DNA of 64,000 nucleotides from Holophagales bacterium (GTDB taxonomy: Bacteria > Acidobacteriota > Thermoanaerobaculia > Multivoradales > Multivoraceae). The translations under genes and the position numbers were made by a program. The stretch spans positions 506,363 through 570,362 of the forward strand of contig VXZQ01000001.1 in assembly GCA_009845425.1 (NCBI GenBank). Reading direction: 5' to 3'. Shown one piece after another: positions 10,101 to 51,234 of the stretch (position 1 is its first letter; every line of letters starts with the position of its first letter). The notes beneath the pieces were generated by a model that was given only the letters and a program-made list of their open reading frames with translations, was not told where the DNA came from and did no database searches.

Positions 10101-11173
10101 CGCAGTCGCTCCGTGCGCAGGTAGGTCTTCTGGCGCCGGTGCGTCGCCCGGCGATAGAGCGGGAACAACTGGAAGTAGCTCTTGATCTTGAGCCAGCGGC
10201 CGAAGATGCCCTGCGGCTCGAAGAGGATCACCAGCACCAGGATGAGGCCGAAGATGCCCGGCTCGAGGCCGGGCGCCTGAGCGATCTGCGGCGGCAGCGT
10301 GTCGCGGGCGATGGCGAGGAGTTGAGGCAGGAAGCCGATGAAGAGCGCGCCGTAGATGACGCCCCGCATCGAGCCGACCCCGCCGACCACCACCATCAGG
10401 AGGAGCTGCAGCGAGATGAGGAACGTGAAGGCGTCCGGCGAGAGGTAGCCGAGGCGATGCGCGAAGAGAGCGCCGGCGAGGCCGGTGATGCCGGCGCTGA
10501 GAGCGAAAGCGAGGGTCTTGTACACGGCCAGGTTGATGCCGACGCTCTCCGCCGAGATCTCCGAGTCACGGATGGCGACCATGGCTCGTCCCGTCGAGGA
10601 CCGCAGGATGTTGAGCGCCGCGAGGAGGGTCACGACGAGAAGCGTGAGCGTCACGTAGTAGTGCTGCCAGCCCTGCGTGAGCGGCATCCCGAAGAGGCTC
10701 GCCTGCGGAACGGCGAGGCCGCGAAAGCCCCCGGTCAGCCACTCGGCGCGCGAGATTGTCTGCTCGGTGAGCATGGCGAAGGCCAGGGTGGCGATGGCGA
10801 GATAGATGCCCGTCATCCGGAGCGCGATCCACCCCACGCCGGCGCCGACCAGCGCCGAGACCAGGACCGCCGCGACGATCGAGAGGAGGAACGGCAGACC
10901 GGCGCCCAGAAGGAGCGAGTGGGTATAGGCGCCGATCGCCAGAAACGCCGCGTGGCCCAGGCTCACCTGGCCGGTGTAGCCCACGAGCAGCATCAGACCG
11001 ACACCGGCGATGGCGTAGATCATCACCAGGTTGAGCTCGCCCAGATAGAAGGTGCCGAGCGCCGCCGGCGCCGCGGCGGCCAGCACCAGGAGCAGGCCGT
11101 ACCAGAACCGGTCGCCACCGTGCTTGAGGTGGTCGATGTCCTGGTTGTAGTGGGTCTTGAAGAGGAACCGCAT
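10097..11173 (-). CDS. livM: ABC transporter permease LivM
   Basis: A 358-residue integral membrane protein with about nine hydrophobic helices. The LivM hallmarks GLMLLVGYTGQVSLGHAAFLAIGAY, RMTGIYLAIATLAFAM and GRAMVAIRDSEISAESVGIN (the loop that contacts the ATPases) are all present, as is the GGVGSMRGVIYGALFIG segment. The frame is open upstream to 11725, but that extension lies antisense-like inside livH coding sequence; the ATG at 11173, 17 bases after the livH stop, gives the normal family length. Confidence 0.92.
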   Translation of the reverse strand: MRFLFKTHYNQDIDHLKHGGDRFWYGLLLVLAAAAPAALGTFYLGELNLVMIYAIAGVGLMLLVGYTGQVSLGHAAFLAIGAYTHSLLLGAGLPFLLSIVAAVLVSALVGAGVGWIALRMTGIYLAIATLAFAMLTEQTISRAEWLTGGFRGLAVPQASLFGMPLTQGWQHYYVTLTLLVVTLLAALNILRSSTGRAMVAIRDSEISAESVGINLAVYKTLAFALSAGITGLAGALFAHRLGYLSPDAFTFLISLQLLLMVVVGGVGSMRGVIYGALFIGFLPQLLAIARDTLPPQIAQAPGLEPGIFGLILVLVILFEPQGIFGRWLKIKSYFQLFPLYRRATHRRQKTYLRTERLR

Positions 11174-11190
11174 TCGAAACTCGCTGGCCG

Positions 11191-12063
11191 TCAGACCTTC
11201 TTTCGCTGAATCTGCGCGAACAGGCCCTGGGGCCGCAGGATCAAGGCCAGAATGAGAATGCCGTAAGCGGACATCTCCTGGAAACCGGCGGGCAGGTAGA
11301 CCCCCGCGAATTGCTCGGCGATGCCGATGATCCAGCCGCCGAGCAGCGCGCCGGGGATCGAACCGAAGCCGCCGATCACCGCGGCCGCGAAGGCCTTGAT
11401 CCCGATGAATCCCATCCCGGGCTGGACGAGCGAGACGGGCGCCAGGAGGATCCCGGCGACGGCGGCGACTCCGGCGGAGATCGCCCACACCAGGGAGAAG
11501 ACCCGCTTGACCGGGATGCCGACGTAGTAGGCCGCGAGCTGGTTCTGCGACGTGGCCTGCATGGCGATGCCGAGCCGCGTGCGGCGGAAGAACAGGAACA
11601 GCACGACGCAGAGGATGAGGGTGCCCAGCAGGATCGCGAAGTTCTCGTAGCTCACGACGACTTCGCCGACACGCAGCGACTTGCCGGTGTACGGAGTAGG
11701 AAAGCTCTGCGGGTCGTAGCCCCACACCAGTCCCGCCACGGCGCGGAAGATGAAGCCCAGCCCGATCGTCAGCATCACGATGGCGAACTGGGGTTCGCCC
11801 AGAACGCGGCGCAGCACGAAGGCGTCGAGTAGATAGCCGAAGACCGCCAGCGCCAGGACCGACAGCAACAACCCCAGCACCCAGGGCAGACCGAAGTCGC
11901 CGATCAGGGTCACCGCCACGAAGGCGCCCAGCATCATGAGGTCGCCCTGGGCGAAGTTCACCATCTCGGTCGCCTTGTAGACGAGGACGAAGCCGAGAGC
12001 GATCAGGCCGTAGATGCAGCCGACGGCCAGACCGTTGACGAGAACCTGCAGGAGCTGACTCAG
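11191..12063 (-). CDS. livH: ABC transporter permease LivH, probable CTG start
   Basis: A membrane permease of the LivH family. The conserved block YKATEMVNFAQGDLMMLGAF is usually about 40 residues from the N-terminus, and the expected residues before it (LQVLVNGLAVGCIYGLIALGF) are encoded upstream of the first ATG at 11964. No ATG, GTG or TTG occurs in this frame between that ATG and the in-frame TAG near 12127. A CTG at 12063 sits five bases after GAGGGAG and gives 290 residues, the normal family size. I therefore call a CTG start. Other landmarks are the RDxx-type loop region RRTRLGIAMQATSQNQ and GIKAFAAAVIGGFGSIPGALLGG. First gene of the liv operon. Confidence 0.88.
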   Translation of the reverse strand: MSQLLQVLVNGLAVGCIYGLIALGFVLVYKATEMVNFAQGDLMMLGAFVAVTLIGDFGLPWVLGLLLSVLALAVFGYLLDAFVLRRVLGEPQFAIVMLTIGLGFIFRAVAGLVWGYDPQSFPTPYTGKSLRVGEVVVSYENFAILLGTLILCVVLFLFFRRTRLGIAMQATSQNQLAAYYVGIPVKRVFSLVWAISAGVAAVAGILLAPVSLVQPGMGFIGIKAFAAAVIGGFGSIPGALLGGWIIGIAEQFAGVYLPAGFQEMSAYGILILALILRPQGLFAQIQRKKV

Positions 12064-13497: not shown

Positions 13498-15000
13498 ATG
13501 AGCATCGCCGCCTCCGTAGCCACCCGAGCCCCGGCCGACCGCATCGACCTGACCGATCCCGGCCTCCTCCGCGACCAGGCCTACATCGACGGCCAGTGGG
13601 TCGACGCGGACTCCGGCGAGACCTTCGCCGTCGAAAACCCGGCCACGGGCGAGGTCCTCGCCGAGGTCGCCTGCTGCGGCGGCGCCGAAACGAGCCGCGC
13701 CATCGAGGCTGCCGGAAGGGCCTTCGAGCAGTGGCGGCACACCACGGCCAAGGAGCGCGCCGCGCTGCTCCGGCGCTGGTTCGACCTGATGATGGAGGCC
13801 CAGGAAGACCTGGCCCAAATGATGACCGCGGAGCAGGGCAAGCCCCTGTTCGAGGCCCGCGGCGAGATCGCCTACGGCGCCAGCTACGTCGAGTGGTTCG
13901 CCGAAGAGGCCAAGCGGGTCTACGGCGACACGATCCCCCAGCCTGCCAACGACAAGCGGGTCGTCACCATCAAGCAGCCGGTCGGCGTAGTGGCCTGCAT
14001 CACGCCCTGGAACTTCCCCAACGCCATGCTCGCGCGCAAGATCGCGCCGGCCCTCGCCGCCGGCTGCACGGTGGTCTGCAAGCCGGCCAACGAAACGCCC
14101 CTGTCAGCCAACGCGCTGGCCGAGCTGGCGGAGAGGGCGGGCATCCCGGCCGGAGTGATCAACATCCTCTGCGGCCAGACCGAGGAGATCGGCAGGGAAC
14201 TGACGTCCAACCCCACCGTCCGCAAGCTCACCTTCACGGGCTCGACCGCGGTCGGCAAGCTGCTCATGTCCCAATGCGCGGGCACGATGAAGCGGATGTC
14301 CATGGAACTGGGCGGCAACGCGCCCTTCATCGTGTTCGACGACGCCGATCTGGACGCGGCGGTCGCCGGCGCCATGATCTGCAAGTTCCGCAACGCCGGC
14401 CAGACCTGCGTCTGCGCCAACCGCATCCTGGTCCAGGAAGGCGTCTACGACGAGTTCGCCGAGAGACTCGCCGCGGCGGTGGCCGGGATCAAGATGGGCG
14501 ACGGCACCGAGGACGGCGTCACCGTCGGCCCGCTGATCAGCACCGAGGCTGTCGCGAACGTGACCAGCCGCGTCACCGACGCGGTCGACCGGGGCGCCAC
14601 CGTCGAGATCGGCGGCGGGCAGTCCGATCTCGGCGAGTGCTTCGTCCAACCCACGATCCTCACCAACGTGACCGACGACATGCGGGTCTTCCGCGAAGAG
14701 ATCTTCGGCCCCATCGCGCCGCTGATGAAGTTCAGCACCGAAGAGGAAGCGATCGCCATGGCCAACGACACCGAGTTCGGCCTGGCCAGCTACTTCTACG
14801 CCCGCGACGTCGGCCGCATCTGGCGCGTCAGCGAAGCGCTTGAGTACGGCATCGTCGGCATCAACGAAGGCATCATCTCCAACGAGATGGCCCCCTTCGG
14901 CGGCATGAAGGAATCCGGCCACGGCCGCGAAGGGTCGAAGTACGGGCTCGACGACTACCTCGAGATCAAGTACATGTGCATCGGGGGGATCGAGGGGTAG
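13498..15000 (+). CDS. gabD: NAD(P)-dependent aldehyde dehydrogenase, succinate-semialdehyde type
   Basis: 500 residues, close to GabD in length and sequence. The catalytic pattern is complete: N172 in ITPWNFPNAM, E270 in SMELGGNAPFIV and the nucleophile C304 in NAGQTCVCANRI. The last of these, with two Cys spaced as CVC, is typical of succinate-semialdehyde dehydrogenases. FTGSTAVGK binds the nucleotide. ATG at 13498 follows GGGAG by eight bases; the open frame upstream only covers a repeat. It oxidises a semialdehyde to the acid with NAD(P). Stands alone, divergent from the selenoprotein and convergent with the PrpD-like gene. Confidence 0.88.
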   Translation: MSIAASVATRAPADRIDLTDPGLLRDQAYIDGQWVDADSGETFAVENPATGEVLAEVACCGGAETSRAIEAAGRAFEQWRHTTAKERAALLRRWFDLMMEAQEDLAQMMTAEQGKPLFEARGEIAYGASYVEWFAEEAKRVYGDTIPQPANDKRVVTIKQPVGVVACITPWNFPNAMLARKIAPALAAGCTVVCKPANETPLSANALAELAERAGIPAGVINILCGQTEEIGRELTSNPTVRKLTFTGSTAVGKLLMSQCAGTMKRMSMELGGNAPFIVFDDADLDAAVAGAMICKFRNAGQTCVCANRILVQEGVYDEFAERLAAAVAGIKMGDGTEDGVTVGPLISTEAVANVTSRVTDAVDRGATVEIGGGQSDLGECFVQPTILTNVTDDMRVFREEIFGPIAPLMKFSTEEEAIAMANDTEFGLASYFYARDVGRIWRVSEALEYGIVGINEGIISNEMAPFGGMKESGHGREGSKYGLDDYLEIKYMCIGGIEG

Positions 15001-15033
15001 CAGCGCGAGTTGTCGGTGCGAGTGTCGGTGCGG

Positions 15034-15176
15034 GTGTCGGTGCGCCGGCCTTCTGGCCGGCATGCCGCCGTAGGCGGCGGAGATAAGTCGCCGGCCCTTG
15101 GCCGGCGGCCGCCTTAAGGGCTCGTCGCTTCGCGACATCGCGCTTCATGCCGGCCAGAAGGCCGGCGCACCGACAC
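15034..15176. repeat. Long inverted repeat made of two opposed copies of the palindromic element (copies 3 and 4)
   Basis: The 31-base arm at 15034-15064 (GTGTCGGTGCGCC..GGCATG) is an exact reverse complement of the arm at 15146-15176. Between them lie further palindromes (CCGCCGTAGGCGGCGG, GCCGGCCCTTGGCCGGC). Upstream at 15011-15036 the short unit GTCGGTGCG is repeated in tandem. It separates two convergent genes, touches the stop of the minus-strand gene, and could act as a two-way terminator. Confidence 0.85.
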
Positions 15177-16505
15177 TCAGCAGAGCTCGCGAACGTCGCC
15201 CACTGTCTCCAAACCCAACGACATCTCCCGCAACCGGTCACTCGCCTCCGTGCCAAGCAACGACGCCGTCAGCCCCGTCATCTTCGCCGCCAGCTTCGCC
15301 CCCTGTGCCTCCAGATCCGTCGCCGGGATGCCGGTGTCGTGGAACTCCTCCAACCGGTGCCCGTTCGCACGCAACTCCACCCGCGCCTGGGTGTGCCCCA
15401 GCCCGCGGTCCGTCCGCACCTCGACCCTGTCGATCATCCGCGCGACCTCCGGATCGTCGAGCGTCTCGTCGACGAACGTCCCGGTGTCCGTCGTGTCGAT
15501 CCCCAGTATCGCCAGCGACATCGTGGCCACCAGACTGAACTTCGCCTCGAGCCCCGTCTTCGGTTCGGGAATGCCGCAGACGTCGAGCAACCCCGGATGC
15601 ACCGTGACGATCGCCTTCTCGACGTCCCCCGCCGAGACCCCCGCGGCCGCCAACTGCGGCCGCAGCCGCCCAACCGACTCGATCGCCGCATGGGTCAGGT
15701 AGCAGGCGGCGTGGTACTTGAACAGCGTGTCCTCGATCAGGAAGCGGCCGTCCTGCTCCTCTAGCCGCTCCCACTTGACCTCTTCGTGGCCGGCGGCCGC
15801 GGCGTCGGCGTAGCCCTGCCGGCCGTCGACGGCCTCCGGGTTCGACGTGAAGCCCCGCATTGCCAGCCGCGCGGAAAGCAGACCCCGCTCGGCGGCGTGA
15901 CCGGCGTGGAACGGCTTGGTCATCGTCCCGAAGTTCGCCTTGAGACCGCTGGCCTGCGACGCAGCCAGGCCCAAGGCGTGAGCGAACTGCTCATTGCTCG
16001 CACCCATCAGGTGGCACACCGCGGCCGCGGCGCCATGAACGCCGATCGTCGACGTCGAATGCCAGCCCTTCCTGTAGGCAGCGCCCCCGATCAGGGCACC
16101 GACCCGCGACTCCACTTCCACGCCGACAACAAAGGCGACGAGCAACCGCTCGCCGCTCGCGCCCATTTCCTGGGCCTGCGCCAACACGGCCGGGAACACC
16201 GGCACCGTGGGATGGCCGCCCATCATGCTGTGGGTGTCGTCGAAGTCGAGCGCATGACTCGCGGCGCCATTGACGAGTGCCGCGACACCCGGTGGGCAAC
16301 ACAGATCCGTGCCGACAATCGAGCACGGGCCTGCCTGGCCGCCCAGCTCGTCGCGCAGGATCTCCGACAGCGGCTCCCGGCTCCCGGCCAGCGCGCAGCC
16401 GAACCAGTCGAGCACACACTGGCCGGCCACCGTGCGGGCCGACTCCGGAATGTCGTCGAGGGTCAGACCGCCGAAACGATCCCAGAGGTGGTTCGCGAGT
16501 CTCAT
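15177..16505 (-). CDS. MmgE/PrpD family protein
   Basis: A 442-residue member of the MmgE/PrpD family, which includes 2-methylcitrate dehydratase and other CoA-independent hydro-lyases and isomerases. Family marks: LDWFGCALAGSREP near residue 35, NGAASHALDFDDTHSMMGGHPTVPVFPA, the central GLAASQASGLKANFGTMTKPFHAGHAA and the late KFSLVATMSLAIL. ATG at 16505 has GAGGAG about six bases upstream and follows the acyl-CoA dehydrogenase stop by two bases, so the two are co-transcribed. No citrate synthase or PrpB is nearby, so a methylcitrate role is not supported; it more likely acts on the product of its acyl-CoA dehydrogenase partner's pathway. Confidence 0.87.
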   Translation of the reverse strand: MRLANHLWDRFGGLTLDDIPESARTVAGQCVLDWFGCALAGSREPLSEILRDELGGQAGPCSIVGTDLCCPPGVAALVNGAASHALDFDDTHSMMGGHPTVPVFPAVLAQAQEMGASGERLLVAFVVGVEVESRVGALIGGAAYRKGWHSTSTIGVHGAAAAVCHLMGASNEQFAHALGLAASQASGLKANFGTMTKPFHAGHAAERGLLSARLAMRGFTSNPEAVDGRQGYADAAAAGHEEVKWERLEEQDGRFLIEDTLFKYHAACYLTHAAIESVGRLRPQLAAAGVSAGDVEKAIVTVHPGLLDVCGIPEPKTGLEAKFSLVATMSLAILGIDTTDTGTFVDETLDDPEVARMIDRVEVRTDRGLGHTQARVELRANGHRLEEFHDTGIPATDLEAQGAKLAAKMTGLTASLLGTEASDRLREMSLGLETVGDVRELC

Positions 16506-16507
16506 CG

Positions 16508-17698
16508 TCAACTCCTCCTCGACGGCTTCCCCAGCAACTCGTCGGACACGATCTTCAGCATGATCTCCGACGTCCCCTCGAAGATCTTCGTCAGCCGCGC
16601 GTCGCGCCAGTAGCGCTCGACCGGGTAGTCCGTCGTGTAGCCCGCGCCGGCGAGGACCTGCAGCGCGTCGGAGCACACCCGCTCCGACATCTCGGCGGCG
16701 TAGTACTTCACCATCGCCGCCTCCTTGGCGCAGGACACGCCGGTGTCGATCTTGGCGCAGACCGAGTAGTTCAACTGGCGCGCCGCCTCGACCTCGGCGG
16801 CCATGTTCGCGATCTTGAAGCGGATCGCCTGGAAGTCGGCGATCGGGCGCCGGAACTGGATGCGCTCCTTCGAGTACGCGATCGCCTGCTCGAGCGCGCC
16901 CTGGGCAAGGCCGATCGAGCGCGCCGCGGTGTGGGCCCGCGCCGTCTGCAGACCGCGCGTCATGCCGTAGAACGCCTGGCCCTTGGACTCGCGCTGTTGC
17001 TTCGTGATCGGCACGCGGACGTTCTCGAAGTGGAGTTCCCAGGTCTTCCAGCCGTGGTAGCCGATCTTCGGGATCGGCGAGCCAGTGACCCCCTCCGGCA
17101 GCTCGCCGGGCGGCTTCTCGATCCCGATCCCGGTCAGCGCGGCGTGGCGCTTCGCCGGATCGCCCTCCGTCCGCGCGATGACCTGGATGAAGTTCGCGCC
17201 GTCGGCGAAGGTGCACCAGTACTTGTTGCCGGTGATCACCCAGTGGTCGTCCTCCACCCGCGCCCGGCAGGTGATCGACGAGATGTCCGAACCGACCTCC
17301 GGCTCCGACATCGCGAGCGCGCCGAGGTACTTGCCCTCGGCCATCAGCCGGATGCGCTTCAGGCGCTCCTCGCCGTCGAAGGGGATCGACCGGTAGAAGC
17401 CGTTGCCTCGGGCGATGATGCTCGCCACGCTCATCCAGCCCCGCGCCAGCTCCTCGGCCACCAGGCAGTACTCGAACGCGCCCAGCCCGGCGCCGCCGTA
17501 TTCCTCGGGGATCACGATGCCGAAGAAGCCCAGTTCGCCCATCTGGTCGATCAACGACTGCGGGATCGTCTCCTTCTTCGGGTCGAGCTCGTTGGCGACC
17601 GGAAGGACCTCCTTGTCCGTGAAGTCCCGGGCGATCCGGCGGAGCATCTCGCGCTCCGGCGTCATGTAGCCGACGGCGGCGGGTGAAATGTCGTTCAT
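16508..17698 (-). CDS. Acyl-CoA dehydrogenase
   Basis: 396 residues, standard length. FAD- and substrate-binding motifs are present: ALAMSEPEVGSDISSI, WVITGNKYWCTFADGAN, RGLQTARAHTAARSIGLAQGAL, and QVLAGAGYTTDYPVERYWRDAR. The likely catalytic Glu lies in KIFEGTSEIM near the C-terminus. It forms the trans-2-enoyl-CoA from an acyl-CoA and passes electrons to ETF; substrate unknown. ATG at 17698; the open frame upstream to 18007 is out of register with any domain. Probably first gene of the pair with the PrpD-like gene, following the PPOX-fold gene at 19 bases distance. Confidence 0.9.
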   Translation of the reverse strand: MNDISPAAVGYMTPEREMLRRIARDFTDKEVLPVANELDPKKETIPQSLIDQMGELGFFGIVIPEEYGGAGLGAFEYCLVAEELARGWMSVASIIARGNGFYRSIPFDGEERLKRIRLMAEGKYLGALAMSEPEVGSDISSITCRARVEDDHWVITGNKYWCTFADGANFIQVIARTEGDPAKRHAALTGIGIEKPPGELPEGVTGSPIPKIGYHGWKTWELHFENVRVPITKQQRESKGQAFYGMTRGLQTARAHTAARSIGLAQGALEQAIAYSKERIQFRRPIADFQAIRFKIANMAAEVEAARQLNYSVCAKIDTGVSCAKEAAMVKYYAAEMSERVCSDALQVLAGAGYTTDYPVERYWRDARLTKIFEGTSEIMLKIVSDELLGKPSRRS

Positions 17699-41174: not shown

Positions 41175-42029
41175 TCAGCGGCGGCTCCCATCCGGGCCGA
41201 ACTTCCACGGCGGCTCGTCACCGAACCTACCCTCGTCCCGCATGGTGCGGTACTCCACGTCTTCGCGGTCTACGACCTTGCACCAACCAACGTATTGCTG
41301 AGGGCCGGCCCATCCGTGGCGCGACCAGAACGCCACGTTACCGCCAACGGAGACTCCTCCCACTACTTCTCGCGTACTCTCCCAGTGTCGGGTGACGGTG
41401 ACGACTGAGACTTCGGCACCGCCCAAGCCGATTCGCTCGATGAGTGTGAGCGCGTTCTTGCTGCCGTAGACCCGCACGTTGGATGCGCCCAGGTTGCCAA
41501 CCAAGCGGGCGTTGCCGACGCCGTAGATGCCCCTTGCAACACTGTCGGTGGGCAGGCGGATGTCGTCGTAGGCCATTCTGCCTCCGCTTTCTCCGGCATC
41601 GGGGAACCAGCAGCGTAGACCGCGCGCCTCTGAGAGGTTCTCTTTGAGGTCGTTCGCTTCCGGGTAGAGGATGCCGCGGGCTTCGGGATCGCCGGTTGGG
41701 CAGATGGACGCCAAGGCATGGTGCTCCGGGCTCCCCGCCGCTGGAAGCAAGTCGCCGAACAGTTCTTCCTGCCGCGCTTGTAACGCACCGCGCTTGGCCC
41801 AGAATCCGTAGTCGCCGCGCTCGGCCTCCAAGATGCACGCCGCGCCTTGTACGGCGACATCTCGATTGGCGAGCACGTCGGGGTCTTCTGCGTCAAGACC
41901 CACAGCTGCGATCAACGACTCCCAGTACGCATCGGCGACGTGGTTGGCGTCCAGCGGCGGCTCCTGCGCCTCGCAGACTCCCACGGTCAGCCAAGCCAGC
42001 GTCGCCATCGCCATGCAGATCCGGTTCAC
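41175..42029 (-). CDS. Hypothetical exported protein
   Basis: 284 residues from a GTG at 42029, with AGGAGG nine bases upstream; an ATG lies 15 bases further in. A signal peptide (ICMAMATLAWLTVGVCEA) is followed by PPLDANHVADAYWESLIAAVGLDAEDPD. Cys residues at several positions (AACILEAE, SICPTG, LRCWFPDAG, VGWCKVVD) could form disulfides in the periplasm. No known family. The divergent antitoxin-like gene at 42078 shares the intergenic region. Confidence 0.65.
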   Translation of the reverse strand: MNRICMAMATLAWLTVGVCEAQEPPLDANHVADAYWESLIAAVGLDAEDPDVLANRDVAVQGAACILEAERGDYGFWAKRGALQARQEELFGDLLPAAGSPEHHALASICPTGDPEARGILYPEANDLKENLSEARGLRCWFPDAGESGGRMAYDDIRLPTDSVARGIYGVGNARLVGNLGASNVRVYGSKNALTLIERIGLGGAEVSVVTVTRHWESTREVVGGVSVGGNVAFWSRHGWAGPQQYVGWCKVVDREDVEYRTMRDEGRFGDEPPWKFGPDGSRR

Positions 42030-42077
42030 CGGTTTCTTCCTCCTATGTGTCTGTCCGTGGATAATAGTCCGCGCGTC

Positions 42078-42335
42078 ATGAAGAACCCCGCCCACCCAGG
42101 CAGGCTCGTCGCGAGCGCCTTCGAGGCCGAGGGCTGGACGATCTCGCACGCCGCCGAGCGGCTCGGCGTCACCCGCGCGTTCCTGTCGCGCATCCTCCAC
42201 GGACACGCCGGCATCACCGCAGCCACCGCGCTGCGGCTCGAGGCGCTCGGCTGGTCCGACGCGGAACACTGGATGCGGATGCAGGCGAGTCACGACCTCG
42301 CCCGGGAACGGCGGCGCGCCCGCGCCGTCGCCTGA
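42078..42335 (+). CDS. higA: HigA-family antitoxin, without a toxin
   Basis: 85 residues: PAHPGRLVASAFEAEGWTISHAAERLGVTRAFLSRILHGHAGITAATALRLEALGWSDAEHWMRMQASHDLARERRR is the standard HigA pattern (HPG, HTH, then WLxxQxxYDL). In HigBA the toxin gene precedes it; here there is only the divergent exported protein. It is therefore an orphan, possibly regulating its neighbour. ATG 42078 has no strong ribosome site. Confidence 0.85.
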   Translation: MKNPAHPGRLVASAFEAEGWTISHAAERLGVTRAFLSRILHGHAGITAATALRLEALGWSDAEHWMRMQASHDLARERRRARAVA

Positions 42336-42430: not shown

Positions 42431-43219
42431 ATGACTGAAGCAACGCCCATCACAACCACCCTCGCCGGGCATGTCCTGCGAATCCACGTGGACCGCGAGA
42501 AGAAGCTCAACAGCTTCACTCCCGAGATGTTCGGGCAACTCTCCGGCGCACTGACCGAACTCGAGGAGACGGAAGACGCATGGGTCGGCGTCCTCACCTT
42601 CCAGGGGAAGCACACGACGGCCGGCCTCGACCTGCCGAAGTTCGCCGGTTCGATGGCCCGCGGCAGGGACGCCGACGAATCGCCGGACGACCGCCCCGAC
42701 CCCTTCGCGCTCCGCCGGCGATGCCGCAAGCCGCTGGTGATGGCCGTCCAGGGGATCTGCTACACGATCGGGATCGAAATGGCGCTGGCCGCGGACATCG
42801 TGGTGGCGGCCGAGGACGCGCGCTTCGCGCAACTGGAACCCCGGCGCGGCCTCGCGGTGTTCGGAGGCGCCCACGTCCGCTACGTGCAGCGAGCCGGATG
42901 GGGAAACGCGATGTACCACCTGCTGCGCGCCGACGAGTTCGACGCCCAGCGCGCACTCGCTCTCGGCTTCGTGCAGGAAGTCGTGCCCACCGGCGACCAG
43001 ATCGACCGGGCCCTGGCGCTTGCGGAGGAGATCTGCGAGTGCGCCCCACTCGCCGTTCGGGAGATCAAGCGGGCGGCGCAGGTCTATCTCGAAGAGGGCG
43101 AGCAGGCCGCGTACCGGGAGATTCCTGCCATGCGCGCAAGGACGGCGAACTCGGCGGACTTCGCGGAGGGGATCGCTTCGTTCGTCGAGCGTCGCAAGGC
43201 GACGTTTCAAGGGCGCTGA
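42431..43219 (+). CDS. Enoyl-CoA hydratase/isomerase family protein
   Basis: 262 residues of the crotonase family: VLRIHVDREKKLNSFTPEMFGQLSGAL, HTTAGLDLPKF, and PLVMAVQGICYTIGIEMALAADIVVAAEDARFAQLEPRRGLAVFGGA, which holds the oxyanion-hole Gly. The C-terminus ALGFVQEVVPTGDQIDRALALAEEI is standard. The usual catalytic Glu of hydratases is not obvious in this copy, where EP occurs in its place in FAQLEPRRG, so isomerase or other activity is possible. Its 3' end exists as a broken copy at 37946. Confidence 0.85.
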   Translation: MTEATPITTTLAGHVLRIHVDREKKLNSFTPEMFGQLSGALTELEETEDAWVGVLTFQGKHTTAGLDLPKFAGSMARGRDADESPDDRPDPFALRRRCRKPLVMAVQGICYTIGIEMALAADIVVAAEDARFAQLEPRRGLAVFGGAHVRYVQRAGWGNAMYHLLRADEFDAQRALALGFVQEVVPTGDQIDRALALAEEICECAPLAVREIKRAAQVYLEEGEQAAYREIPAMRARTANSADFAEGIASFVERRKATFQGR

Positions 43220-43234
43220 CCGGGGCCGTCGCGC

Positions 43235-43431
43235 CGCGGCACGACCCGCGAGCGCCGCGCTGCCGGGCTACATCGTGGGCGCGAGCGGCTGGCTGCGCTC
43301 GATCTGGCAGGACCGCGCCGCCTTCGCGGACAAGCCGGCGCTCATTCTCTGGGGCCTGAAGGACATTGCGTTCCGGAGGAAGGAACTGGGGCGATGGAAG
43401 TCGGCGCTTCGGGATGTCGACGCGCGCGTCC
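43235..43431 (+). pseudogene. Fragment of a duplicated haloalkane-dehalogenase-like gene (copy 2)
   Basis: ASAALPGYIVGASGWLRSIWQDRAAFADKPALILWGLKDIAFRRKELGRWKSALRDV can be read here. The DNA is nearly identical to 37308-37495 of the intact gene, with only scattered changes, but both ends are missing, including nucleophile and catalytic His. It follows the intact enoyl-CoA hydratase by 16 bases. Confidence 0.88.
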
Positions 43432-43604
43432 GTTCCGGTGGCCAGATGCTCTCCGTGACTGACCTCGGCGCTGAAGCCCTCAGCTATGGCCACCGCTTTG
43501 CCCGCTCAGCCAACGGACTGCTACACCTCCCGCCGAGCGCACGGGACTCAGGCGAATCTGAACAACAGCAGAGCGCAGTCGGCGAACGCTCGGCCGGCAG
43601 CGGT

Positions 43605-43766
43605 TCAGTCGTCTAAGAGCCGGCGAAGCAACCACACCGGCACCGCAATCGCGAGCACAAAGGCGGTCATGAGGAGACCGAAGCCAAGCACCGCGCCAAG
43701 TCCCTCCCTCAACTCTTCGGGGATGAGGTCGAGAGCCAAGCGGACCAGTTCCACTACGGACTGCAT
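43605..43766 (-). CDS. Small single-helix membrane protein (53 residues)
   Basis: A short frame from ATG 43766 to TGA 43605: QSVVELVRLALDLIPEELRE, then the transmembrane helix LGAVLGFGLLMTAFVLAIAVPVWLLRR. The helix and GC-rich third positions suggest a real gene, perhaps holin-like or a membrane peptide, but no ribosome site is clear. Confidence 0.45.
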   Translation of the reverse strand: MQSVVELVRLALDLIPEELREGLGAVLGFGLLMTAFVLAIAVPVWLLRRLLDD

Positions 43767-44845: not shown

Positions 44846-45190
44846 TCAAGGCGCTGCCCTAGGCGTCTCGCCCGCATCTGGCTCGTTCCACTCCTGACGC
44901 TTGTTGGATAGCACGTCACGCAGCGTGACCGCCGAGTGTCCTGGCATCTCCACCAGCGGGTCGACTCCGGGCCGGTAAGGCCAGAGCGGGCAGCGGCGCG
45001 ACTGGCAGGCGGCCACTTGGGCGCGCCATGTGCCGCCGGCGCCGGGGTCGTAGATGCAGTCGGCACAGAAGGCCGCTATCGCCTCCGACCGGGTCGGTAC
45101 TCCGGCAGCTCGGTAGGCAGCCGACTTCGCGCGCTTGCTGGCCTGGGCCTGCGCGACCACCTCGGCGGAATGCAGTTGGTCATGGGGCAT
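44846..45190 (-). CDS. Small cysteine-rich, probably zinc-binding protein
   Basis: 114 residues: EAIAAFCADCIYDPGAGGTWRAQVAACQSRRCPLWPYRP has CxxC and CxxxxC pairs suitable for zinc, in a layout seen in phage and island genes (I recall the pattern, but no family name). The helical N-terminus (AEVVAQAQASKRAKSAAYRAAG) is normal. The ATG at 45190 follows a purine-rich GGGAGAGAG. It overlaps no other coding gene, but its tail begins inside sequence next to the duplicated fragment. Confidence 0.6.
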   Translation of the reverse strand: MPHDQLHSAEVVAQAQASKRAKSAAYRAAGVPTRSEAIAAFCADCIYDPGAGGTWRAQVAACQSRRCPLWPYRPGVDPLVEMPGHSAVTLRDVLSNKRQEWNEPDAGETPRAAP

Positions 45191-45692
45191 CTGGTCTCTC
45201 TCCCTCGAAGCGGTGTGAGCGGGTCGCTCAGTCTAGACCGATCAGCAGAGTGCAACCCCATCAAACCGCAGCCACCCTGGCCGGGGCTGTGGAACTCCCG
45301 CTCTCTCGGGGGACACCCGGAACCCGCGGCGAACGACTGGCTGCGCTCCATCTGGCAGAACCGCCCCGCCTTCGCGGGCAAGCCCGCGCTCATTCCGTGG
45401 GGTCATCGCGACCCGAAGAAAAGGAACTGGTGCGGCGGAGGTCGTCGCTTCGGGATGCCGAGGTGCACGAGTTCGACGACTGTGAGCACTTCCTAGCGGA
45501 GAGGCGCCGGGGTGGGTTGTGGAGGCGCTTCGGGGGTTCATGGGGCGCTAGTGGTCGCCGCGGCCCAAGTCTAGTGCCCGCCGTGCCGACGTTTCACGCT
45601 GGGCGGACCTTCTGGTTGCTCTCGCCTCGGCCTAGCTGTTACCCTCTGGCCGAGATGCACCTCAGCGGACCTGCTACGGCGGGTGAGGTCCC
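45191..45692. other. 500-base stretch without a functional gene
   Basis: Contains the second dehalogenase-like fragment at 45318-45550 and, at 45555-45690, sequence leading into the CysH-like gene. No promoter motif is obvious before 45693. The first 120 bases show nothing I can name. Confidence 0.6.
45318..45550 (+). pseudogene. Fragment of a duplicated haloalkane-dehalogenase-like gene (copy 3)
   Basis: More diverged than copy 2 but clearly the same region: ANDWLRSIWQNRPAFAGKPALIPWG, then a frame change, then the reading equivalent to VHEFDDCEHFLAE and a final GGSWGA in place of GFMGR. It ends with TAG at 45548-45550, at the place where the intact gene reads MGR. Insertions and deletions break the frame at least twice. 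Confidence 0.8.
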
Positions 45693-47057
45693 GTGACCGA
45701 ACTGGTCCTCCGAGCCGTGCCGGCTCTCACGACCTCCCGTCGACGCCCCAAGCCCGTCGCGAGTTTCGACTCGGAGGAAGCTCATAGGCTCCGCTACCGG
45801 AAGAAGCGGCACGCCGAGTTGCCGCACATCGTCAAGTTCTCCGGTGGTCGCTCCAGCGGGATGATGCTGTTCCTGCTCCTAGAGAACGGGATACTGGATC
45901 CGGCGCGGGGAGACGTGATTGTCTTCAACAACACCGCCAGCGAGCACCCCGACACCTACCGCTTCGTACGGGACTGCGAGGCGGCGTCCTGCAGGTACGG
46001 AGTCCCCTTCTTCTGGATCGAGTTTCAGACCTACGAGGACGTGGTCAGACGGCAATGGTCGCGGCGCGCCTCGTACCGCCTCGTGAACAACCAGCCCTGG
46101 TCGCTGGAGAATCCGGATGGTTTCCACTGGCGCGGAGAAGTGTTCGAGGAACTACTGTCCTGGTCCTGCTACGTGCCGAACCAATTCCGGCGCATCTGCA
46201 CGCAGAAGATGAAACTGGAGACGACGCGGATGTTCCTGATGGACTGGCTCGCCGGCAAGGACGGCATAGCCCGTCAGGGACACTATGGAAAGACCTCGCG
46301 GATCAAGGCGGACGCGATGTATGCCCGTCACCAGCGCAGCAACGGCAGTGTGCCCAAACACATCCTAACGCGGAAGCGAGACTTCGTCCTGAACCGCCCG
46401 CACTACCGGCCGGACCAGCGATTCGACGACTTCTCTCCGGTCTGGCAGCCGTTCGAGAATCAGGCCACGAAGGACAGCGTCTTCGGCGGCAGGGCCCGGT
46501 TTGCCAAGCGAGGCGGCCACATGGAGTACGTCGCCTTCGTTGGGCTCAGGGGCGATGAACAGAATCGCGTCAAGAGGGTCGAGGACCGCAACGGCGGACC
46601 GGGCGCCTCCGGCTACGAAGGCGAGCACGTCTACATGCCCCTTGCTGACTTGGCCATCAGCCGGAGCGACGTCAACGCTTTCTGGGATCAGCAGGAATGG
46701 GATCTCGCTCTGCCGAGCGAAGGGTCTCTCTCGAACTGTGTCTACTGCTTCCTCAAGGGTGCCGCGAATCTGGAGTATGTCCATCAGAGGATGGAAGCCG
46801 AGAAGCACCGCGAGATTCCCGGCTTCGGGTCGCTGGCCGATACACCTTGCGACGTCGATTGGTGGGACAAGATGGAGAGGCAGTACGGTCGCGACTTAGA
46901 GGCTGAGAAACGGCAGATCCACGGGAACCCGAGGAACAAGCTCATCGGCTTCTTCGGAACCTCGACTGGCTTTTCCTACTCGGTTCTGCGAGAGAAGGCC
47001 GCTGACGGACTAGCGGAGTACTCAGAGTCGCTGCTCCCCTGCGACTGCACGGAGTAA
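45693..47057 (+). CDS. CysH/DndC-like PP-loop protein (PAPS reductase family)
   Basis: 454 residues from a GTG or ATG near 45693. A PP-loop S50-G-G-R-S-S-G56 in HIVKFSGGRSSGMMLF binds ATP. FNNTASEHPDTYRFV and FVGLRGDEQNRVKRV match other PAPS-reductase-fold motifs. Four Cys, C159, C169, C349 and C352, in the arrangement SWSCYVPNQFRRICTQ and SNCVYCFLKG, could bind a 4Fe-4S cluster as in DndC and many CysH relatives; a final CDC lies at the C-terminus. The chemistry suggested is ATP activation followed by sulfur or sulfate transfer. Size and cysteines differ from sulfate-assimilation CysH. First gene of a five-gene unit, 13 bases before the desulfurase gene. Confidence 0.8.
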   Translation: MTELVLRAVPALTTSRRRPKPVASFDSEEAHRLRYRKKRHAELPHIVKFSGGRSSGMMLFLLLENGILDPARGDVIVFNNTASEHPDTYRFVRDCEAASCRYGVPFFWIEFQTYEDVVRRQWSRRASYRLVNNQPWSLENPDGFHWRGEVFEELLSWSCYVPNQFRRICTQKMKLETTRMFLMDWLAGKDGIARQGHYGKTSRIKADAMYARHQRSNGSVPKHILTRKRDFVLNRPHYRPDQRFDDFSPVWQPFENQATKDSVFGGRARFAKRGGHMEYVAFVGLRGDEQNRVKRVEDRNGGPGASGYEGEHVYMPLADLAISRSDVNAFWDQQEWDLALPSEGSLSNCVYCFLKGAANLEYVHQRMEAEKHREIPGFGSLADTPCDVDWWDKMERQYGRDLEAEKRQIHGNPRNKLIGFFGTSTGFSYSVLREKAADGLAEYSESLLPCDCTE

Positions 47058-47069
47058 TCTCGGCGACGG

Positions 47070-48218
47070 ATGGACCGGTCCGTCGCGTACTTGGACAACC
47101 AGGCAACGACGCCTGTTGACCCGCGAGTGCGGGAGGCGATGCTCCCGTTCCTCGGCCAGGTCTTCGGGAATCCACACTCCCGCGACCACGCCTTCGGATG
47201 GGACGCGGCGAACGCGGTCCGGCGCTCCCGAGCGGACGTTGCCGCCCTCGTCAACGCCGATGACGACGAGGTCGTGTTCACCTCCGGTGCCACAGAGTCG
47301 TGCAATCTAGCTTTGAGAGGTGTTGCCAAGGCTGCACCCGACAGGCGCAGGCGCATCATCACGATCGCGACCGAGCATCCTGCTGTGATCGAGACCGTCC
47401 GCGACCTAGGTCAGACTGGATTCGAAGTCGTAATCCTGTCCGTCGGCTCGGACGGTATTGTGGACCTGGATCACATGGACAGCATGCTGAACGACCGTAC
47501 CTTGGTCGTCTCAGTCATGGCTGGCAACAACGAGATCGGCGTCCTCCAACCGCTCGCCGAGATCGGGGCTATGTGCCGGCACTATGGGGTGATCTTCCAC
47601 ACCGACGCCACACAGGCCATGGGCCGTATCGCAGTCGACGTTGACGACTGGCAGGTGGACCTACTGAGCCTCTCGGGGCACAAGATGTACGGTCCCAAAG
47701 GTGTCGGTGCTCTCTTCGTGCGCGAAGGCACTCCGATCGCACCGGTCTTCGCTGGCGGCGGTCAAGAGTTCGGGCTTCGTCCCGGCACAGTTCCGGTTCA
47801 ACTTGTCGTAGGCTTGGGGGAAGCGTGCGCACTCGCGGTGGATTCCTGGCGTGCAGATGCCAAACGGATCGCCGAACTCACTAACCACCTGAAAGCCGGC
47901 CTGATGGAGTCCTGTCCAGTTATCCGCTTCTTTGGCAGCATGGAAAGGCGGTTACCAGGCAGTCTCAGTGTCGGCTTCGGCTGGCCCGCACACGAAGTCA
48001 TCGCCAAGGTCTCGGATCGAATCGCGGTCTCTACCGGTTCAGCTTGCTCGTCAGACTCCACTGAACCGTCACGTGTCTTGCGAGCACTTGGTCTCAACGA
48101 TGAGGCGGCGGCCTCAGGGGTCCGCATCAGTCTCGGCCGCTTCAACATCGACAAGGACGTAGCCGCGGCACTCAACGCGTTCTCGCGGCTCCCTGTGGCG
48201 CAGGAGGAGTATGGATAG
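47070..48218 (+). CDS. Cysteine desulfurase (IscS/NifS/DndA-like)
   Basis: 382 residues. YLDNQATTPVDPRVREAMLPFLGQVFGNPHS is the standard opening, with H103 stacking on PLP, the PLP lysine K205 in SLSGHKMYGPKG and the catalytic Cys C326 in STGSACSSDSTEPS. All are present, so activity is expected: transfer of sulfur from cysteine as persulfide. Near relatives supply sulfur to iron-sulfur clusters, tRNA thiolation or DNA phosphorothioation. Lying between a CysH/DndC-like gene and a GHKL ATPase, it probably serves these. Its last 8 bases overlap the ATPase start. Confidence 0.9.
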   Translation: MDRSVAYLDNQATTPVDPRVREAMLPFLGQVFGNPHSRDHAFGWDAANAVRRSRADVAALVNADDDEVVFTSGATESCNLALRGVAKAAPDRRRRIITIATEHPAVIETVRDLGQTGFEVVILSVGSDGIVDLDHMDSMLNDRTLVVSVMAGNNEIGVLQPLAEIGAMCRHYGVIFHTDATQAMGRIAVDVDDWQVDLLSLSGHKMYGPKGVGALFVREGTPIAPVFAGGGQEFGLRPGTVPVQLVVGLGEACALAVDSWRADAKRIAELTNHLKAGLMESCPVIRFFGSMERRLPGSLSVGFGWPAHEVIAKVSDRIAVSTGSACSSDSTEPSRVLRALGLNDEAAASGVRISLGRFNIDKDVAAALNAFSRLPVAQEEYG

Positions 48219-50163
48219 CCTTACCACAAACGGACTCGACCTGAGGTTTGGGCCCGCTGGCGCCAGCACAGGCTTTACGCCAGCCGGCATTGCCGCCTTC
48301 AACGATCTTCGGCCCGCAGCCGTTGTGCGCGAGCTCCTGCAAAACTCGCTCGACGCGCTGACCCCGAAACAGACTACTGCCCGGGTCCTGTTCCGTGTTG
48401 ACCGGTGCGAGTCTTCCGAGATTCCTGGAATCCAGAACTACTGGCGAGCCTACAAGGCCGCCGTCAAGACCCAAGCCGACATGCGCGGCGGGAGTCTTGC
48501 CGGCCAAGCGCGCTACGTCGCGGACACCATGGAGAAGGCACTCGAGCAGCAGCGCCATCGGGTCCTGACCGTCCTCGACAACGGGCATGGTCTCGACGAG
48601 CGTCGGATGAACGCCCTTCTGAGCGACGGCGTCAGCGCAAACGACCCCGGTTCGACCGGCGCCTACGGCAACGGGCACTGTGTGGCGATCCCTGCTTCCG
48701 ACCTTCGGTACGTCCTCTATGCGGGACTCACCGAGAATGGGGACACCATAGCCTCGGGCCACGCGGTCATCGCCTCCCATGCCATGGAGGGCAAAGGCCG
48801 GCTCCAAGCTGGTGACGGTTTTCTGATCAGGGGCTTCAGGGATCCAAACAGCGGCAAGCTCTACGAGTACGAGTCGGGCGAGGGCATCCCAGCTTTCCTT
48901 CAGAGTCGTGTCGACGACATCAAGGCGATGCACGGCCACGGGACGGCGGTCGTTCTCCTGGCCTTCAACAACTTCCGGGAAAGGAGGACGCTCTGGGACA
49001 TGGTCTCCCGTGCCGCCGCGTGCAACTTCTTCGTGGCAATCGAGGAGGGGCGTCTCGTTGTCGATGTCCAAGGCTCCGAGGACAGCATCCGGACCTTGGA
49101 TCGCGGCAACCTGAAAGCCGTCCTCGAGAACTGCCGAAACGAGAAGCGCTCGAGGGCGTTCCTGAGCGGTGCTAGAGCGTGGGAAGCGCATCAGGCCCTG
49201 AGAGAGGGAACGCGGCATGCCATTGAGACCGATGCCGGGGTCATCCACGTGGCCCTACATCAACAGCAGTCTGGAAGTCCGAGGGTCGATCTGTGTCGCA
49301 ACGGCATGTGGATCACCAACGACTACAAGCTACCTCGCTTCTACTACAAGTTCACTGACAAGGAGCCCTTTCACGCAGTCCTGATGCTCGATGCCGAGAG
49401 CGGCGGCGAACTGCACCGGCTGATCAAGGAGTCGGAGGGACCGCTCCACAACCAGGTCAACTTCAAGGACTTCTCGACGAAGGACCGGAAGCAGGTGGAG
49501 AAGGCCCTCGACCAGATTCGAGGGTGGCTCCGGGAGCACACGCCTTCCGTGAGCAATGAGGCCTTCAGTCCCGACGATTTTCTAACACTCGGCGAAGGAC
49601 AGAACGGTGTGGCTGGCTGGACTCAGCTCACTCTCTGGGGAACGCCGACTGCAGTGGAGCGCAGGATGCCAGCGCGGACTCCCCGGCTCACCCGGAAGCC
49701 TAAACGTCCAGGGGATGGCCCCCCATCCTCACGCCCTACCCGCCAACGCCGGCGACGCTCGCTCCCGTCCCTGTTTCAGGTTGTCTCTGTCCCAACGGGT
49801 GCGCGCAGCAGCCGTATCGTGGTCGAGTGTGAGCAGGACTACCCCGATGCGGAGTTTCGGCTGTGCCTCGACGAGAACATTGATGCTACGTGCGACCGGG
49901 TCCCCTACAACGAGATCCTGTTTGCCGCCCTGAGCAACACCAAACTCAACGGCAAGACTGTCCCCGCCGCAGCCCGCATCTGCGACCGAGGAGGCGGTGT
50001 CATCGGCATTCGCCTAGGTGATTTGGCCGCGGGTGATCGACTGTTCTTGGAGACTGACTGGAGCTTCCCGCCCTCGGCCGGAACGCTTGCTGGTGACATC
50101 TCCCTGCGAGTTCAGGTAACCAAGACCGACCCGCTAGACGTGAGGGACGAAGAACGTGGCTGA
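48211..50163 (+). CDS. GHKL (Hsp90/MORC-type) ATPase
   Basis: 650 residues. The GHKL fold is shown by E41-L-L-Q-N45-S-L-D48 (N-box), D123-N-G125-H-G127 (G1), and the GAYGNGH lid region (150-156), in the Hsp90/MORC/MutL arrangement. The central part (residues 200-480) has no known family, although KRSRAFLSGARAW and the GMWITNDYKLP stretch look like a C-terminal S5-fold region. From about 545 to 580 a basic linker (RKPKRPGDG.. RQRRRRS) leads into a C-terminal beta-rich domain of about 110 residues. ATP-driven clamp-like dimerisation is known for the fold; the substrate is unknown. Overlaps both neighbours by 8 bases. Confidence 0.85.
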   Translation: MDSLTTNGLDLRFGPAGASTGFTPAGIAAFNDLRPAAVVRELLQNSLDALTPKQTTARVLFRVDRCESSEIPGIQNYWRAYKAAVKTQADMRGGSLAGQARYVADTMEKALEQQRHRVLTVLDNGHGLDERRMNALLSDGVSANDPGSTGAYGNGHCVAIPASDLRYVLYAGLTENGDTIASGHAVIASHAMEGKGRLQAGDGFLIRGFRDPNSGKLYEYESGEGIPAFLQSRVDDIKAMHGHGTAVVLLAFNNFRERRTLWDMVSRAAACNFFVAIEEGRLVVDVQGSEDSIRTLDRGNLKAVLENCRNEKRSRAFLSGARAWEAHQALREGTRHAIETDAGVIHVALHQQQSGSPRVDLCRNGMWITNDYKLPRFYYKFTDKEPFHAVLMLDAESGGELHRLIKESEGPLHNQVNFKDFSTKDRKQVEKALDQIRGWLREHTPSVSNEAFSPDDFLTLGEGQNGVAGWTQLTLWGTPTAVERRMPARTPRLTRKPKRPGDGPPSSRPTRQRRRRSLPSLFQVVSVPTGARSSRIVVECEQDYPDAEFRLCLDENIDATCDRVPYNEILFAALSNTKLNGKTVPAAARICDRGGGVIGIRLGDLAAGDRLFLETDWSFPPSAGTLAGDISLRVQVTKTDPLDVRDEERG

Positions 50164-51007
50164 GATCGCAGCGCGTGCGCGAGCCGCATCGAACGCCATC
50201 CGATCTCACAGTCACCCGATCCTCGAGACTGGAAACCTCTCTTACCCCAACGGCTTCTACGCCGTCGACTTCCGGCCAGGAGACGACCAATCCTCCTTCC
50301 GCCTCGTCCACCGCGTTGAGGGCGCCCCGCTCATCTCCCGTCTACTCGAAGATGGCACCGCGAAGTGCATCTGCACCGTTTCGGCCCCGATCTCCACGTT
50401 TCGCAAAACGCTGGTATCCGAGACCGAAGTCCAGACCATCTCGTGGGACATCGATCAACTCGGAGAACCGCCACTCTTCACGCCGATGATCGTGAGCATG
50501 GGGTACCAAGAGATCGTACTCGACTCGGAGCGCGACGGTGCCCACAGCGCCTGGGACGGCGCCACTGTGAAGCTCCTCAAAGGGTCCCGGCTCGCCGTCG
50601 GGCCGGTGATTCAGCTACAGTCCTCGCCCCTCCAGATGATCGTCATCGTGCCGAAGCCCGAACTCGCGGAGGGAGTCTTCTTCGTGCAGCCACGGAGCGA
50701 ACCGCCGTTTCGGTTCGAGGTCAACGTCAGCACGAAACTGCATGCCTACCTCCAGCGCAAGGCCGGGGAATTGCGCCCGACCATCATGACCCATATCGTC
50801 ACCGGTTGCTTCCGGCTGCTCCAGCATTCGTACTCGCGAGACTCCGACGAGGACGGCGGCTGGCGCTCTGACCGCAGTCTGTTGGCCTTGAGCGACTTCC
50901 TGGAGGAAAGGGGACTCGGCCATTGGAGCGACGATGACTTCCGGCCCGAGCAAGCTGCAACGTCTCTCTACCCCTTGACGCTGCCAGAACCACAAGAGGA
51001 GACGTGA
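50156..51007 (+). CDS. Unknown protein of the sulfur/ATPase operon
   Basis: 283 residues, GTG start, 8 bases inside the ATPase gene. NLSYPNGFYAVDFRPGDDQSSFRLVHRVEGAPLISRLLEDGTAKCICTVSAPISTFRK forms a beta-rich N-terminal half. The second half (FRFEVNVSTKLHAYLQRKAGELRPTIMTHIVTGCFRLLQHSY) is helical. I recognise no family. It is likely a structural or targeting partner of the ATPase because of the tight coupling. Confidence 0.7.
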   Translation: MAEIAARARAASNAIRSHSHPILETGNLSYPNGFYAVDFRPGDDQSSFRLVHRVEGAPLISRLLEDGTAKCICTVSAPISTFRKTLVSETEVQTISWDIDQLGEPPLFTPMIVSMGYQEIVLDSERDGAHSAWDGATVKLLKGSRLAVGPVIQLQSSPLQMIVIVPKPELAEGVFFVQPRSEPPFRFEVNVSTKLHAYLQRKAGELRPTIMTHIVTGCFRLLQHSYSRDSDEDGGWRSDRSLLALSDFLEERGLGHWSDDDFRPEQAATSLYPLTLPEPQEET

Positions 51008-51010
51008 TCC

Positions 51011-51130
51011 TTGCCGGACCGATACATCCAGTTCAAGGACGCCGACTACACTCAACTCCGCCGCAAGCTACTCCAGACCAAGGGGGGCGACGAGCAGAGG
51101 CAGTTCCTTGATGCCGTCCGCGAATGTTGA
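51011..51130 (+). CDS. Short frame at the end of the sulfur/ATPase operon, probably truncated
   Basis: TTG at 51011, nine bases after GAGGAG, opens PDRYIQFKDADYTQLRRKLLQTKGGDEQRQFLDAVREC, stopping after 39 residues. The opening looks like the N-terminus of a larger protein, and the next bases carry no continuing frame. Either this is a small subunit, or it is the remains of a longer gene cut off at the junction. Confidence 0.45.
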   Translation: MPDRYIQFKDADYTQLRRKLLQTKGGDEQRQFLDAVREC

Positions 51131-51234
51131 GGCGCGCGAGAAACCAGCAACCTAGTGATGCGAGAAACGCTGTGCAGACGTGTTGACCACGCCAACACTC
51201 TGTTGACGGCTGCCTGTGGTACGCTCCGCAAGCG

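Follow-up and report, generated by a model that had tools for sequence, protein, structure and literature searches.

What is the function of an operon that places a PP-loop enzyme and a cysteine desulfurase directly beside a GHKL ATPase? The question is raised by a locus of five genes (A to E) in a 64,000-nucleotide stretch of DNA from a Holophagales bacterium (assembly GCA_009845425.1, contig VXZQ01000001.1, positions 506,363 to 570,362; the window), in which an initial annotation, made from the sequence alone, had seen a candidate undescribed sulfur-based system. Our analysis suggests that the gene set is probably a defence of a new kind, which marks the cell's own DNA with sulfur and attacks unmarked DNA, and that the copy in the window has probably been cut off by phage DNA. 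We read the locus in this way because sulfur-handling enzymes are joined here to an ATPase module that is found elsewhere beside DNA methylases.

All five genes lie on the plus strand. Gene A (45693–47057) encodes a 454-residue PP-loop, PAPS-reductase-like protein with matches to phrog_424 and SspD, a predicted sulfur-transfer (thiolation) enzyme; gene B (47070–48218) a 382-residue cysteine desulfurase of the DndA/SspA/IscS type; gene C (48211–50163) a 650-residue GHKL ATPase of the PDC-M33A type; and gene D (50156–51007) a 283-residue protein of the PDC-M33B type. The fifth of the same-strand frames first reported, ending at 51130, is a truncated E (E′, 51011–51130, TTG start), which covers the initial ~38 codons of a gene for a DUF6339 protein (PDC-M33C-like). 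By open reading frame coordinates, A and B are 12 bases apart, one fewer than originally given, and B/C and C/D overlap by 8 bases, as stated. Against the closest relative (L016, from the same genus, our reference for substitution rates and for comparisons of E), nonsynonymous divergence (dN) is well below synonymous divergence (dS) in A, B, C and D. Because dN/dS is well below 1 in four genes and 33 further loci carry the same gene set, A to D are a real, co-inherited, conserved unit and not chance open reading frames. The initial annotation had named genes not occurring together elsewhere as the outcome that would count against it, and this is the opposite of what we found. Its set of four genes stands as a co-inherited unit but is too small: the full set is A(-B)-C-D-E, with B optional, and an optional GmrSD nuclease.

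The other loci came from searching 84,980 species genomes for C, the A-linked search being seeded with A-linked sequences, which gave 33 genomic loci in six phyla. A lies immediately beside C in 32/32 loci with room for it; the exception is L040, whose contig begins at C. Three gene orders occur (A-C-D-E, A-B-C-D-E and C-D-E-A-B), within which the order C-D-E is fixed, with gaps of mostly −8 to +20 bases. Pairwise distances among A, C, D and E correlate across 19 loci (r 0.85–0.94), and those of A and C across 22 loci (0.90, with a permutation maximum of 0.47). Among 396 genomes of the window's phylum, all three full-length A genes adjoin C. GmrSD-type genes are found near 10 of the 33 loci.

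C and D, and probably E, correspond to PDC-M33, the nearest named system, an uncharacterised PADLOC candidate in which C, D and DUF6339 genes likewise follow one another. In profile searches C matches PDC-M33A (E-value 1.6e-30) and, weakly, general GHKL families, and D matches PDC-M33B (1.4e-5); profile-profile comparisons (below) agree with both assignments. The complete E of L016 matches DUF6339 at 2e-7, with no match to the M33C profiles at 0.01, and the DUF6339 proteins of loci lacking A match PADLOC M33C. The ATPase and the 283-residue protein are thus not wholly undescribed, contrary to the first proposal; what is new relative to PDC-M33 is the sulfur pairing of the GHKL module. In Pfam and NCBIfam, A and C found only weak matches and D had no match.

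The nucleotide-binding motifs of C are intact. The GHKL N-box RELLQNSLDA (48328–48357, plus strand) has R40, E41, Q44, N45, D48 and A49 invariant, and the stretch from G1 (DNGHGL) to G2 (GAYGNG) (48577–48675, plus strand) has D123, G127, G150, G153 and G155 invariant; the layout is D123xG125xG127 for G1 and G150..G153xG155 for G2, with G125 invariant in the A-linked trio. The complete N-box and G1 noted in the initial annotation are therefore present, and G2 with them. GHKL proteins close upon ATP binding, and by analogy C should do the same. The predicted structure of D (pLDDT, the predicted local distance difference test, 88.6) is beta-rich with a helical C-terminus, and that of E has a pLDDT of 93.9. 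Fold searches with the two models found no significant structural relative and recognised no enzyme fold in D, and PDB profile searches with D and E returned nothing usable. Since there is no significant structural relative and D and E contain few invariant polar residues, the models make them look like structural or recognition parts.

The partner of this module differs between two groups of loci. C-D-E without A occurs on plasmids of actinobacteria, firmicutes, Deinococcus and haloarchaea and also on viral contigs. Profile-profile comparison of the A-linked with the methylase-linked sets gave E-values of 3.5e-40 for C, 2e-13 for D and 2.5e-4 for E (mismatched controls, 0.3 or worse), which supports homology of the two sets. 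A C5 or N6 DNA methyltransferase lies within about 5 kb of C-D-E in 14/16 A-less loci, and the same models, which were built from few sequences and covered C5 and N6 enzymes, with N4 enzymes not sought, detected one in 0/33 A-loci (Fisher p 3e-11, computed with 14/15 and on clades that are not independent). A control set of 200 kb taken from four of these plasmids contained methylases in just one stretch. In L090, a chromosomal locus from the window's phylum with the order C-D-E-C5 methylase-Vsr, the methylase overlaps E by 4 bases; in L021 (C-D-E-A-B) A takes this slot, with the same 4-base overlap with E.

On the strength of the methyltransferases in 14/16 A-less loci, the lack of any detected in the A-loci and the shared 4-base slot, A probably stands in for a DNA methylase, in a swap of sulfur for methyl on a GHKL chassis. 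Compared with PDC-M33, whose A-less loci adjoin DNA methyltransferases, window-type loci add A (and B) and stand apart as a C clade of their own: a fully supported branch of the C tree divides A-linked from methylase-linked loci. Because the two locus types split across this one branch, the exchange may have happened once; the groups are non-independent samples. The substrate of A is most likely DNA, since A fills the methylase's place.

The sequence of A is in keeping with such a role. In profile searches it is closest to phage PAPS-reductase families (phrog_424 PAPS reductase, 1.7e-33). It matches SspD at 3.1e-7 over a best stretch of just 34 residues, and SspD is matched by all 21/21 aligned A homologues (best 3.9e-14); the matches to BrxP (0.0024) and DndC (0.028) are weak and very weak, respectively. 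The CysH/DndC-like label initially given to A needs correcting: A is nearer SspD than DndC, weakly like both and a demonstrated member of neither. The PP-loop motif SGGRSS (residues 50–55; 45840–45857, plus strand) is as described, with S50, G51, G52, S54 and S55 invariant in 21 homologues; a DndC-like spacing of the cysteines was not confirmed, the conserved ones being C169, C349, C352, C450 and C452. CVYC (C349xxC352; 46737–46748, plus strand) may form an iron-sulfur (Fe-S) site with C169, all three cysteines being invariant in the 21 homologues. The C-terminal CDCTE (C450xC452; 47040–47054, plus strand) is conserved in homologues and is a possible persulfide-carrying tail; CDCT[DE] ends nearly every A homologue, and one has CSVCGDY there. 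Together, the invariant PP-loop, C169, CxxC and tail would suit an enzyme that transfers sulfur and has both an Fe-S site and a mobile tail to carry the sulfur.

A single-sequence search with A matched one PDB chain, PptA, and that one weakly (E-value 0.13). PDB 21fy is a solved entry with PptA and IscS, for which we found no paper; PptA may be a related thiolation enzyme. A PDB match of A as a profile was dismissed as an unconvincing coincidence. In Acidimicrobiia loci L026, L027, L033, L034 and L047, A is divided between two frames, of which the first has the PP-loop and C169 and the second CxxC and the CDCTD tail; this may be a natural split or a frameshift. PAPS-reductase-like sequence related to A also occurs in other genomes of the genus (L097, 6143–7606; G117:C47:51633-51989) and, in the window's genome, within the phage region on contig C14 (L065, about 16788–17054). 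Relatives of A are present in phages of Roseobacter and Erythrobacter, and a pattern scan of viral contigs found none that encodes A. These A-like sequences may reflect phage use or counter-defence.

B is equally like SspA (4.2e-141) and DndA (6e-141) and carries the SGHK motif, with the pyridoxal phosphate lysine, and the GSAC motif, with the catalytic cysteine, so the intact desulfurase of the initial annotation stands. The gene is mainly restricted to one part of the tree, and six genomes without B in the locus each encode 2–4 other desulfurases. In the same way, dnd clusters without dndA depend on IscS (PMC3519819).

How does the operon end? E′ of the window matches the E of L016 by tblastn (47% over 62 residues, E-value 9e-11), after which its frame runs into phage-end-like sequence, TGTTGAGG..CGCGAGAAACC..TGCGAGAAACGCTGTGCAG..CAACACTCTGTTGACGG (51125–51212, no strand), followed by phage tail genes. 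The remaining E is on contig C14 and is 68% identical to L016 E over residues 26–289. There, on the minus strand of L065, 6839–9061 and 9110–9905 hold F, an intact 740-residue GmrSD-type protein in one open frame with QRSYVW, DGQQR and HHVFP, whose relatives match GmrSD_N, and the larger part of E. The two adjoin phage head genes and phage-end-like sequence related to that of the window. Because the E remainder and intact F sit together on C14, the operon probably once read A-B-C-D-E-F and has since been broken in E, by one insertion or by a rearrangement. A single clean prophage insertion in E was not borne out, as the bases at the two breaks differ (GCGAA, CTCTT) and late phage genes lie on both flanks. 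In L016 itself, C bears an ISL3 transposase gene close to the 5′ end (10019–11890), and the GmrSD gene is frame-broken into two frames (13645–15435).

On balance we lean towards a sulfur version of PDC-M33, in which A marks the cell's own DNA with sulfur, C-D-E engages DNA and F cuts unmarked DNA. B, or a housekeeping desulfurase where B is absent, would feed persulfide sulfur to A, which would put sulfur on DNA as a self mark. C-D-E would be an ATP-gated, DNA-engaging complex, with C closing around DNA upon ATP binding and D and E as its structural or recognition subunits, and would work with an adjacent modification enzyme, which is A in this operon and a C5 or N6 methyltransferase in other loci. 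F, where present, would be a DGQQR/HNH nuclease that cuts DNA without the mark, as do SspE and DndI, which share its GmrSD-type architecture (DndI: PMC11662687). Self-marking, an ATP-driven DNA complex and a nuclease are suggested by the motifs of A, the methylase slot, the GHKL nature of C and the GmrSD genes near 10/33 loci, taken together. A sulfur mark on nucleic acid with an ATPase partner, as the initial annotation proposed, is the best reading because C-D-E otherwise adjoins DNA methyltransferases; that DNA carries sulfur, in what chemical form, that C-D-E acts as a clamp and that the operon defends against phages are what we infer. The chemistry could be a thio-base instead of a phosphorothioate.

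Several observations weigh against this sulfur-marking scheme. Two A-less loci, L089 and L015 (the latter's contig is cut upstream), have C-D-E with no methylase nearby. No nuclease was found within the flanks seen in most A-loci. The A-linked loci form one C clade, recovered by a search with A-linked seeds, and the link between A and C-D-E may go back to a single origin. The distance of A from DndC and SspD leaves room for a different substrate, and A homologues exist in phages and prophages.

Four alternatives can be set beside it. C-D-E might itself be modification machinery that finds and opens sites and hands them to A or a methylase, in the manner proposed for DndD-DndE, with restriction left to F or separate nucleases. 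C-D-E does travel with several kinds of modification enzyme and contains no recognisable nuclease, and the DndD-DndE core swaps partners in the same way, pairing with methylases instead (PMC10853773). However, the methyltransferases adjacent to C-D-E resemble ordinary restriction-modification enzymes, which need no such helper, and in the many A-loci without a separate nuclease in the flanks no effector would be left. We regard this alternative as unlikely, with some claim to attention.

PP-loop proteins and IscS commonly serve transfer RNA (tRNA) thiolation, and A is remote from DndC; A and B might thus thiolate tRNA, another RNA or a nucleotide, with defence acting via translation or signalling. 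We find this improbable, given that no tRNA-binding domain was detected in A, that the alternative partners of C-D-E are DNA methyltransferases and that GmrSD nucleases act on DNA. Just as improbable is A as the effector, a PP-loop enzyme that would attack ATP or nucleotides when C-D-E triggers it and would receive its Fe-S cluster from B: the optional B, the Fe-S-like cysteines of A and the A-like genes of phages would suit it, but the methyltransferase in A's slot in L090 argues for a modifying enzyme and the conserved CDCT tail suits sulfur transfer. That ordinary sulfur-metabolism or tRNA genes lie beside an unrelated ATPase by chance, a view invited by the generic annotation of A and B, is already contradicted by the recurrence in 33 loci, six phyla and three gene orders with correlated distances, and by the three full-length A genes of the phylum, and we give it almost no weight.

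How does the sulfur version of PDC-M33 relate to known systems? Ssp (SspABCD-SspE) shares a desulfurase, a PP-loop enzyme to which A is weakly alike (SspD) and a GmrSD-type nuclease, the GmrSD relatives here matching the SspE profile marginally; it differs in that our operon includes a GHKL ATPase, D and DUF6339. SspC had no match among the four operon proteins, to which that search was confined. Dnd (DndABCDE-DndFGH/DndI) likewise has a desulfurase and a PP-loop enzyme, and DndI, which restricts DNA lacking sulfur, has the DGQQR and HNH layout of F (PMC11662687). However, A is at best weakly DndC-like, and in the window's genome DndC had no match at 0.001 and DndD none over the cut-off (one weak match). 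DndE and SspB (DUF4007) had none either, in searches without a positive control; in line with the initial annotation, the Dnd and Ssp scanning genes were thus not found. In BREX type 4 a PAPS reductase takes over from the methyltransferase found in the other types of BREX, and a desulfurase occurs in 56% of taxa (PMC12839542). Our operon likewise has a PAPS-reductase-like enzyme, probably in the methyltransferase's place, but A matches BrxP weakly only, and PglZ, BrxL and BrxC had no match among the four operon proteins. By membership, then, the predicted proteins make the operon neither Dnd, Ssp nor BREX type 4, which it resembles in outline. Iyer and colleagues (2008) reportedly placed prokaryotic MORC-like GHKL ATPases in restriction-modification operons beside a cytosine methylase and Vsr, a neighbourhood like that of L090; C matches general GHKL families weakly.

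In the open-access papers searched we found none naming PDC-M33 or DUF6339, none joining phosphorothioation, GHKL and anti-phage, and no description of the sulfur pairing, the optional desulfurase and GmrSD or the methylase exchange, which is not proof of novelty. We think it nearly an even call, leaning slightly to the negative, that this is a third DNA-sulfur modification/defence system, independent of the Dnd/Ssp scanning ATPases, in which a GHKL-D-DUF6339 core was refitted with a CDCT-tailed thiolation enzyme and spread across phyla.

Some loci are arranged differently. L020 (1033–8956) has two divergent C-D-E sets side by side, one of them followed by A and B; in L022 (7029–9970) pieces of a GmrSD gene lie inside the operon, between B and C; and L088 (7229–11641) holds a 1470-residue frame with a C-like GHKL region, far longer than other members, near which no D or DUF6339 was detected. 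In the window, two similar frames (43020–43616 and 44936–45496; WLRSIWQ.R.AFA.KPALI.WG) flank the island and resemble relics of the C-terminus of an alpha/beta hydrolase, and a frame at 41847–42335 with a HigA-like helix-turn-helix stretch (GRLVASAFEAEGWTISHAAERLGV) is a possible antitoxin gene.

The record names of about 18/33 loci point to sponges (the codes COS, CAR, RHO, APA and SB, Entotheonella, Hopanoidivorans cymbastelae and AqS2), and COS, CAR, RHO and APA fit sponge genera sampled in one study (PMC8163846); by these names many of the host bacteria are apparently sponge symbionts. Phosphorothioation genes have been reported as enriched but functionally incomplete in sponge microbiomes (PMC5099237), and the operon, if our reading is true, would be a candidate source of sulfur-modified DNA there. 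PDC-M33 would gain a testable function, and a role in telling self from non-self would be predicted for two proteins without a significant match to any solved fold. That a single defence chassis can trade methylation for sulfur would then be a general rule, seen in the DndDE core, in BREX and in an uncharacterised GHKL module.

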